This document shows, piece by piece, positions 4,697-14,873 of a DNA stretch of 64,000 nt. Source of the stretch: Candidatus Phyllobacterium onerii (lineage in GTDB: Bacteria > Pseudomonadota > Alphaproteobacteria > Rhizobiales > Rhizobiaceae); assembly GCF_028331445.1 (NCBI RefSeq), contig NZ_JAQMHX010000001.1:186001-250000 (forward strand). The letters are read 5' to 3'. The notes beneath the pieces were generated by a model. That model had not been told where the DNA came from. It was given only the letters and a program-made list of their open reading frames with translations, and did no database searches. The translations under genes and the position numbers were made by a program. Every line of letters starts with the position of its first letter. The first letter of the stretch is position 1.

Positions 4697-4840
4697 TCAG
4701 ATGCAGGCCATCCAGGCAATACGGCGAATGTCGGTGCGTGCGATGCCAAGATCAGCAAGGTTGCGATCGGTGCACGAACGCAGTTCGTGAAGGTTCTGCC
4801 GGTACTGACGATATTTGTGAATACGGTTGCGAAGGCTCAT
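4697..4840 (-). CDS. DUF1127 small basic protein (47 aa)
   Basis: Forty-seven residues, read on the minus strand, starting MSLRNRIHKYRQYRQ and containing LHELRS, DRNLADLGI and RTDIRRIAW, the hallmark of DUF1127. GGGGTAAG precedes the ATG. DUF1127 proteins are small, Arg-rich and in Rhodobacter have been tied to RNA turnover and to CCUCCUCCC small RNAs; in Brucella several are activated by the LysR regulator VtlR. Here the promoter region carries a 31-bp element also found upstream of the structured RNA at 8511-8658. Family assignment is firm, molecular role is inferred. Confidence 0.9.
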   Translation of the reverse strand: MSLRNRIHKYRQYRQNLHELRSCTDRNLADLGIARTDIRRIAWMACI

Positions 4841-4898: not shown

Positions 4899-4940
4899 TT
4901 AAAACTGCAAATGTTGCAGAGCAGCATTGCTTATGGTGCA
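4899..4940 (-). promoter_or_regulatory. Promoter and shared 31-bp element of the DUF1127 gene
   Basis: Read on the minus strand, 4940-4910 is TGCAC-N5-GCAATGCTGCT followed by C-TGCAACATT. It matches 25 of 31 positions of 8706-8676 in front of the minus-strand RNA. An ATGCTG/TTTTAA pair (4922-4927 and 4899-4904) with 17-bp spacing occupies the same place as TTGCTG/TATTAA at the RNA. The TGCA half-sites would suit a LysR-type regulator; this is inference. Confidence 0.6.
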
Positions 4941-8467: not shown

Positions 8468-8510
8468 GCATTTATACGGCAGGTCAATTCTGGAGAAGAG
8501 AATAGGGCTT

Positions 8511-8658
8511 AAAACAACAAAACCCACCGCGGGAGGAGGTGCGGTGGGTTTCGTTGGTTATGGAGGGCCTTCTGGGAGGAGAAGAGGCCATCCGTTTCGA
8601 CAGGGCCGGGAGGAGGTGGCGCTGTCGAAAATTCCTGATTTGAGAGTAACTCAACTGT
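8511..8658 (-). ncRNA. CCUCCUCCC ('cuckoo'/CcsR-type) small RNA with three hairpins
   Basis: Read on the minus strand, three hairpins follow one another. Hairpin 1 (8630-8595) has arms TTTCGACAG/CTGTCGAAA and loop motif CCTCCTCCC (8616-8608). Hairpin 2 (8589-8566) has arms around GGCC-TCTTCT and AGAAGGCC with TCTCCTCCC (8582-8574). Hairpin 3 (8550-8521) has perfect 10-bp arms AACCCACCGC/GCGGTGGGTT, loop ACCTCCTCCC, and is followed by TTGTTGTTTT, a complete intrinsic terminator. A TTGCTG-N17-TATTAA promoter (8693-8665) puts the start near 8658, giving about 148 nt. Unpaired anti-Shine-Dalgarno CCUCCUCCC loops are the hallmark of the cuckoo RNA family (CcsR1-4 in Rhodobacter). No open reading frame with a ribosome site lies within it. 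The exact 5' end is inferred. Confidence 0.78.
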
Positions 8659-8664
8659 CCTGAT

Positions 8665-8706
8665 TTAATACAGACAATATTGCATAGCAGCAATGCATTT
8701 TGTGCA
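8665..8706 (-). promoter_or_regulatory. Promoter and shared 31-bp element of the CCUCCUCCC RNA
   Basis: On the minus strand TTGCTG (8693-8688) and TATTAA (8670-8665) are 17 bp apart. The overlapping stretch 8706-8676 reads TGCAC-N5-GCATTGCTGCT then A-TGCAATATT and matches the DUF1127 promoter at 25 of 31 positions. A further ATTGCTGC half lies just upstream, within 8707-8716. Confidence 0.62.
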
Positions 8707-13160: not shown

Positions 13161-14873
13161 TCAGAACAGAAAGTAGCGCTGTGCCATCGGTAGCAGCGTT
13201 GCCGGCTCGCACGTCAACAATTCGCCATCCGCCCGAACCTCATAGGTCTCCGGATCGACCTCCACATGCGGTGTGGCATCATTGTGGATCATGGAAGCCT
13301 TGGAAATGCCGCTGCGTGTGTTTTCGACGGCGACCAGTTGTTTGTCGATACCGAGCGACTGGCGCAAGCCTGCCTCGACCGAAGCCTTGCTGGCAAACAC
13401 GACCGACGAGTTGCTGACATTCTTGCCATAGCCGCCGAACATATAGCGATAATGGACCGGCTGCGGTGTCGGGATCGAGGCATTGGGATCGCCCATCGGT
13501 GCGGCAACAATCGAGCCGCCAAGCAGGACCATGTCAGGCTTGACGCCGAAGAAGGCCGGGTTCCACAGAACGAGATCGGCACGCTTGCCTACCTCGATTG
13601 ACCCCACGTGCCGGGAAACACCCTGTGCAATCGCCGGGTTGATCGTATATTTCGCGATGTAGCGTTTGACGCGAAAATTATCGTTGTCGCCGGTCTCCTG
13701 CGGCAGGCTCCCGCGCTGGCGCTTCATTTTATCGGCGGTCTGCCAGGTGCGTATCAGCACTTCGCCAACACGGCCCATGGCCTGGCTGTCCGAGGAAATG
13801 ATCGAAAACGCGCCGATATCATGCAGAATATCTTCCGCCGCGATCGTTTCCTTGCGGATACGGCTTTCGGCAAACGCCACATCTTCCGGGATCGATGATG
13901 AGAGATGATGGCACACCATCAGCATATCGAGATGTTCGGCTATGGTATTTTTCGTATAGGGCCGCGTCGGATTGGTCGAAGATGGAATAACGTTGGGAAG
14001 CCCGCAAATCTTGATGATGTCCGGGGCGTGTCCACCGCCAGCGCCTTCCGTATGAAAAGCGTGAACTGTGCGACCCTTGAAGGCGGCGACCGTGTCCTCG
14101 ACAAAGCCGCTCTCGTTCAGCGTGTCGGTGTGGATCATCACCTGCACATCGTACTGATCGGCAACCGAGAGGCAATTGTCGATCGTCGCCGGTGTCGTAC
14201 CCCAATCCTCATGCAGTTTCAGCGAGCACGCCCCGCCAAGGATCATCTCCTCCAGAGCTTTCGGCAGCGATGTGTTGCCCTTGCCTGAAAGGCCGATGTT
14301 CATGGGTATGGCGTCGAAAGACTGAATCATCCGGCCCAAGTGCCATGGCCCTGGCGTACAGGTGGTCGCCAGTGTCCCATGGGCTGGTCCTGTGCCGCCG
14401 CCAAACATTGTTGTAACGCCTGACATCAGCGCTTCCTCGATCTGCTGCGGGCAGATGAAATGGATATGGGCATCCATACCGCCGGCCGTCAGGATTTTGC
14501 CTTCGCCCGCGATGATTTCCGTGCCAGGACCAATGATGATCGTCACGCCGGATTGCGTATCGGGATTGCCGGCCTTGCCGATTTCAGCAATCAGCCCATC
14601 CTTCAAACCGACATCGGCTTTATAAATACCACTGTGGTCAACAACCAGCGCATTGGTGATCACCGTGTCGACGGCACCATCTGCACGGGCAATCTGGCTC
14701 TGGCCCATACCGTCGCGAATGACCTTGCCCCCGCCGAATTTCACCTCTTCGCCATAGATGGTGAAGTCCTTCTCCACCTCGATGAAGAGTTCGGTGTCGG
14801 CCAGGCGCACCTTGTCGCCGGTCGTTGGCCCGAACATGCGGGCATAGGCCGCGCGGGTGATTTTAGCGGGCAT
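13161..14873 (-). CDS. ureC: Urease subunit alpha UreC
   Basis: Catalytic subunit of nickel urease, 570 residues, full length for the family (about 567-570). Nickel ligands and active-site residues are visible: MDAHIHF (two His), the carbamylated Lys in [20 protein letters not shown] and [15 protein letters not shown] (His ligands and substrate His), [21 protein letters not shown] flap with the mobile Cys-His, and SSDSQAMGR (Asp ligand). GAGGGAAA precedes the ATG. Upstream 657 bp separate it from ureB, so it may use its own promoter. Confidence 0.98.

Follow-up and report, generated by a model that had tools for sequence, protein, structure and literature searches.

A conserved, stand-alone alpha-r14 small RNA gene identified by sequence in Phyllobacterium, with a probable LsrB/VtlR box

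The minus strand between positions 8511 and 8658 of the window, which is the whole 64,000-nucleotide stretch of Candidatus Phyllobacterium onerii DNA analysed here, was originally predicted to encode a cuckoo/CcsR-type RNA, and this raises the question to which family such an RNA belongs, where it starts and by what it might be regulated. The covariance-model search proposed for the locus gave a match to the alpha-r14 (ar14) family of Rfam (RF02344) at 8515-8634 (-), which spans model positions 1-123 of 123 and scores 82.9 bits against a gathering score of 58.8. Membership in the CCUCCUCCC ('cuckoo') group is thereby borne out. The CcsR part of the assignment did not stand, as the CcsR1 model (RF02791) reached 25.1 bits at the locus where 65.3 are needed and the alpha-r14/NfeR1 family scores instead; filing the RNA as CcsR was rejected because of this score. 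The ar7 model likewise stayed below its gathering score (25 bits against 60). Judged by its sequence, the region listed first in Table 1 is indeed an alpha-r14 small RNA gene, both conserved and stand-alone, and represents an extra copy of a known family. The RNA had been considered easily missed, but Rfam detects it at its curated score.

As predicted, three consecutive hairpins are formed. The minus-strand fold of 8505-8665 has an energy of -63.7 kcal/mol, whereas shuffled sequences gave -37.65 +/- 3.62 kcal/mol (z -7.2), and none of 200 shuffles was equally stable. The terminator, predicted as a 10-bp stem with a T-rich tail, is present and extends to 16 pairs in the fold; a consensus terminator scan did not list hairpin 3 on the minus strand. 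The notion that the RNA has no reading frame also agrees with the data. A coding gene was rejected as an explanation for the region: one frame across it, which may differ from the frame of a 69-aa ORF, is open in 14 orthologues and interrupted by stops in the other 6 of 20, and two orthologues carry a 1-base length change inside the RNA body.

Table 1. Features of the alpha-r14 locus and its upstream region in the window
Feature	Position	Strand	Basis
Alpha-r14 small RNA, best-supported extent (5' end probably ~8636-8639, 3' end ~8511-8515)	8511..8639	-	RF02344 match, fold, promoter spacing
Hairpin 1, 12 pairs, full CCUCCUCCC in loop	8595..8630	-	Fold; 100% of pair cells kept across the 17 distinct orthologues
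Anti-Shine-Dalgarno motif 1, CCTCCTCCC	8608..8616	-	Invariant in 20/20 orthologues
Hairpin 2, 11 pairs	8562..8593	-	Fold; 97.3% of cells paired
Anti-Shine-Dalgarno motif 2, one-base variant TCTCCTCCC	8574..8582	-	Partly paired in minimum-energy fold; invariant in 20/20 orthologues
Hairpin 3, terminator-like stem, 16 pairs, then T-rich tail to ~8511	8515..8556	-	Fold; 99.3% of cells paired
Anti-Shine-Dalgarno motif 3, CCTCCTCCC, in loop of hairpin 3	8531..8539	-	Invariant in 20/20 orthologues
Probable -10 element TACTCT (remaining 19 orthologues: TATnnT)	8643..8648	-	Box spacing
Originally predicted promoter TTGCTG-N17-TATTAA	8665..8693	-	Present; probably not the promoter used
VtlR-type box GCAT-N3-TG-N3-T, overlaps LsrB box	8684..8696	-	Published motif; sequence match
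Probable LsrB box TGCA-N6-GCAT (T-N11-A type)	8693..8706	-	Published motif; sequence match

The expectation that every hairpin exposes the anti-Shine-Dalgarno motif or a close variant holds for hairpins 1 and 3, whose loops carry CCUCCUCCC in perfect form, and holds in part for hairpin 2, in which the core reads UCUCCUCCC where perfect copies have CCUCCUCCC and the variant is partly paired. The middle motif is one base off in all 20 orthologues, so that two of the three loops are perfect. In the cited account of alpha-r14, CCUCCUCCC is described as identical in the loops of three hairpins (PMC10746234). Other copies of the same genome that score above the Rfam cut-off depart from it as well, two having two perfect loops (L003, L004) and one having none (L005), so that strictly identical loops are apparently not what defines the Rfam family. 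The longer motif CCTCCTCCC occurs twice in the window, both times within the locus on the minus strand, where 0.38 occurrences are expected; since 10 of 100 shuffles had at least two, this count is by itself weak and not decisive, and the case rests on structure and conservation.

An orthologous locus is present in 20 of 20 Phyllobacterium genomes, own genome counted, and in all of them it is flanked by the same neighbours, a MOFRL/DUF4147 (glycerate-kinase-like) gene and a 90-aa gene on one side and a 125-aa gene on the other. Loss of the hairpins in related genomes had been named as an outcome that would speak against the RNA; the comparison shows them to be conserved in the genus. Over 17 distinct aligned sequences, standard pairs fill 98.9% of the pair cells. 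One pair in each helix, three in all, has changed on both sides, while controls with slid partners gave 0 or 1. Hairpins 1 and 3 contribute one such pair each; in hairpin 2 a C-G pair is replaced by U-A in 4 of the 17 distinct rows, and another pair is broken in 5. Further pair types are not more frequent than in shuffles (334 of 500 as high). A pattern derived from the locus found 17 stretches in named genomes, 15 of them titled Phyllobacterium and 2 'Rhizobiales bacterium', a bias that is partly built in because the pattern was constructed from orthologues of the genus.

It could be argued that an extra copy with a variant middle motif is silent or decaying and has no function. In S. meliloti one copy of six was reliably detected by Northern blot under the conditions tested, according to the cited review (PMC7143759), and for this reason any given alpha-r14 copy may be silent. 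Against such a fate stand the genus-wide conservation of the RNA body, the terminator stem and the box region, the pairs changed on both sides, and the fact that none of the three anti-Shine-Dalgarno stretches varies among the 20 orthologues, not even the variant middle one. We therefore regard a functionless copy as very improbable.

Several copies per genome are the rule in the genus. In the own genome seven ar14 matches were found at E <= 1, five of them above the cut-off, with the sixth at 58.7 bits and the seventh and weakest at 26.8 bits, and the other 19 genomes of the genus have between four and seven matches each. A match at E <= 0.001 was obtained in 43 of 59 relatives, and in 35 of the 59 at least one match exceeds the cut-off. 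The cited review places the alpha-r14 family in Rhizobiaceae, Brucellaceae and Phyllobacteriaceae and gives six copies of NfeR1 for S. meliloti (PMC7143759).

The locus indeed stands alone, as had been proposed. A DUF1127 gene directly upstream, the arrangement of CIN1 loci, is absent here and present for two of the seven ar14 matches of the own genome (L001, L005). The nearest of eight DUF1127 matches in the genome is a small gene on the downstream side of the locus (window 4724-4834 (-), 40.7 bits). The lack of a DUF1127 gene, originally regarded as the usual companion, is not surprising, since alpha-r14 copies often stand alone (PMC10746234). From the matches listed outside the genus, 47 copies of 18 genomes were compared and divide into 30 stand-alone and 17 DUF1127-linked ones by a rough home-made protein pattern; five genomes with one weak match each (G038, G039, G043, G046, G050) were left out, and the third L135 copy counts as stand-alone despite a preceding DUF1127-like sequence. 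Furthermore, the founding member of alpha-r14, S. meliloti NfeR1, is reported to have its own promoter (PMC10746234).

With NfeR1 (Smr14C2, SmelC397), the founder of RF02344, the locus shares three hairpins with anti-Shine-Dalgarno loops, a terminator-like last hairpin and the stand-alone position in a genome with several copies. The two differ in the middle motif (UCUCCUCCC here, CCUCCUCCC in NfeR1) and in the NfeR1 core promoter CTTAGAC-N17-CTATAT, which is absent here. In its family features the locus also resembles SmelA075 and SmelA099 of S. meliloti, multicopy families whose RNAs have three or four hairpins and carry CCUCCUCCC in the loops; they were described in 2011 and the cited text mentions members in Phyllobacteriaceae among others (PMC3927594). 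CcsR1-4 from the CIN1 loci of Rhodobacter sphaeroides also expose CCUCCUCCC in hairpin loops, but these RNAs are described as having two stem-loops and as being co-transcribed with, and processed from, the transcript of a DUF1127 gene, ccaF1 (PMC10253847, PMC3927594). The shared loop motif and the two DUF1127-linked copies in the own genome would agree with a CcsR/CIN1-type RNA whose partner is a DUF1127 RNA-binding protein and whose own DUF1127 gene has been lost. We hold this to be very improbable in view of the CcsR1 score given above and of an upstream region that lacks a DUF1127 gene directly before the RNA and is conserved in 20 of 20 orthologues.

Upstream of the alpha-r14 gene two overlapping boxes of published type are found, as would be expected for a member of an LsrB/VtlR regulon (Table 1). 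For NfeR1, activation by LsrB is reported to depend on a TGCA-N6-GCAT element that lies roughly between -72 and -57 relative to the NfeR1 start (PMC10746234); counted from where the Rfam match begins, the box observed here is at -72. For VtlR, the published box reads GCAT-N3-TG-N3-T (PMC7486931). Strict forms of the box occur in 10 of the 20 orthologues, the remainder mostly having GCAA, and the T-N11-A core is present in all 20; a variant box in L040 was missed by two search patterns and counted by a third. A search of 151 family genomes for the exact NfeR1 core promoter together with the box gave 0 matches, and the comparison with NfeR1 rests for this reason on the box and its spacing.

The position of the box bears directly on the 5' end. 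In the 19 orthologues that entered the count, a -10-like hexamer (defined as TA...T or TATA..) lies at a distance of 48 bases from the box, and TA[TC]NNT occupies this position in 20 of 20. In other genera the distance is 47-50 in seven of eight boxed stand-alone copies, the exception being L106, which has no such hexamer in range; shuffles, which as in the box searches keep base content only, gave a mean of 0.53, and 0 of 2000 reached seven. Since this spacing is conserved and TATTAA does not lie at the matching offset in other genera, the 5' end is probably at ~8636-8639, which would give a length of ~126-129 nt. Between the box and the proposed -10 element, TATTAAATCA at ~8661-8670 (-) is conserved in 19 of 20 orthologues.

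The original prediction had the same RNA start near 8658 from TTGCTG-N17-TATTAA, with a transcript of ~148 nt. The promoter sequence is indeed present and has a 17-base spacing; its TATTAA (offset 26 from the box) lies within a well-conserved block and is kept in 19 of 20 orthologues. It is probably not used, as the spacing favours the -10 element further downstream. TATTAA lacks the last T of TATAAT, is lost in L056, where the downstream hexamer is kept, and was seen by eye at an offset of ~26 in 0 of 8 boxed copies of other genera; moreover, the LsrB box would overlap the -35 element. A consensus promoter scan did not list this promoter. On the other hand, by eye no convincing -35 element is present for the start that we propose, and because of this the start near 8658 is kept as an alternative. 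An activator-dependent promoter may tolerate a missing -35. All in all, a transcript of 148 nt is doubtful and the upstream start rather unlikely, related copies placing the 5' end ~20 nt further downstream.

The box is not confined to this locus. In the own genome the composite form occurs nine times, as opposed to two occurrences in a reversed control. Four of the nine belong to the locus studied here, to the upstream region of the DUF1127-ar14 locus L001, to the upstream region of an ar15 (AbcR-type) RNA and to the vicinity of a DUF1127 match just under the cut-off, the last box being divergently oriented. The ar15 RNA is adjoined by a LysR gene, on whose other side lies a frame that resembles thioredoxin reductase (named by eye), and this neighbourhood is the one published for vtlR of A. 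tumefaciens (PMC7486931). In other genera, a search of 130 upstream bases found a box at 11 of 30 stand-alone copies, and one of 450 bases found a box at 8 of 17 DUF1127-linked copies, while reversed sequence gave 0 and shuffles gave means of 0.2 and 0.3, respectively. As tandem copies share upstream DNA and are not independent, they were merged, upon which a box remained at 7 of 11 DUF1127-linked loci. For the Brucella VtlR 15-mer with up to three mismatches, the window shows no enrichment (5 sites against an expected 3.64). One such site, at 4915-4929 (-) and with three mismatches, lies ~80 bases upstream of the small DUF1127 gene mentioned above.

These observations bear the possibility, to which we give about an even chance, that the cuckoo RNAs of Rhizobiaceae, both stand-alone and DUF1127-linked, the AbcR RNAs and the DUF1127 proteins form a single LsrB/VtlR regulon characterized by a shared distance of 47-50 from box to -10. 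Individual cases have been published for LsrB or VtlR, namely NfeR1, AbcR1 and DUF1127 genes of Brucella. A rule spanning genera was not found in the literature searched; to judge from its subject, LsrB and small RNAs in A. tumefaciens, the work of Eisfeld et al. (2021) may cover part of the idea. If a single regulator controls the RNAs with anti-Shine-Dalgarno loops as well as the DUF1127 proteins that may accompany them, this would help to explain why many copies are kept per genome.

With regard to function, we consider it highly probable that the locus encodes an LsrB/VtlR-activated, NfeR1-like stand-alone alpha-r14 RNA that acts in trans by blocking Shine-Dalgarno sites. What can be read from the DNA itself, i.e. 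family membership, structure, conservation, a regulator-type box and promoter spacing, forms the basis of this reading; transcription, LsrB binding, the inducing conditions and the silencing of targets we infer. Under stress or nutrient limitation, the LysR-type regulator LsrB/VtlR would bind the boxes and activate the promoter with the proposed -10 element. The resulting transcript of the length given above would end at hairpin 3, and its CCUCCUCCC loops, two perfect and one variant, would stop the translation of several mRNAs by pairing with their GGAGG-type ribosome-binding sites. The locus itself is unsurprising; with it, a known family of riboregulators gains a conserved and probably stress-regulated copy in a plant-associated genus, and the likely promoter, with a box that matches the binding site of a known stress regulator, is a modest addition.

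The loops contain CCUCC, which we take to be the core of the anti-Shine-Dalgarno end of 16S rRNA, and an RNA of this kind could conceivably serve as a general decoy that acts on ribosome availability and not on particular mRNAs. We consider such a role quite unlikely, given that NfeR1 is reported to repress defined mRNAs in S. meliloti, those of two transporters and ntrB, by pairing at their translation start regions (PMC10746234). A pattern for the 3' end of 16S rRNA had 0 matches in the draft genome. In the present genome, GGAGG is absent before the start of the frame behind dusB, which was taken as ntrB by its position and by eye, and in this respect the locus differs from NfeR1; as a consequence, the target site known from NfeR1 has no evident counterpart in this genome. 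A search for GGGAGGAGG-N4-9-ATG returned eight sites, compared with one in a reversed control, and no clear target set. Three of the eight frames behind these sites were compared with Pfam and proved to be an ATP-grasp/CoA-ligase, a GAF/Fis-type regulator and a frame without family; the five others comprise two of 21 aa and one each of 65, 135 and 175 aa.

Elsewhere in the window, the Rfam model 5_ureB_sRNA matches at 14432-14721 (+) with 111.2 bits, antisense within a frame at 13161-14873 (-) that by eye resembles the urease alpha subunit; this match may be no more than a by-product of the conserved coding strand.

Further forms of ar14 were encountered in the course of the comparison. Six copies of other genera (L100, L101, L106, L107, L108, L109) carry an extra CTCCTCCC stretch before the Rfam match, similar to the four-hairpin form of SmelA099. 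About 2 kb past the window, an ar14-like match one tenth of a bit below the cut-off (L006, G000:C1:251949-252064 (+), 58.7 against 58.8 bits) has a phasin gene (PF09361, 60.1 bits) ~55 bases before it, and three genomes of other genera each contain an ar14 copy (L112, L118, L122) that follows a frame which by eye is similarly phasin-like. A phasin-linked form of ar14 appears to stand beside the DUF1127-linked and the stand-alone forms.
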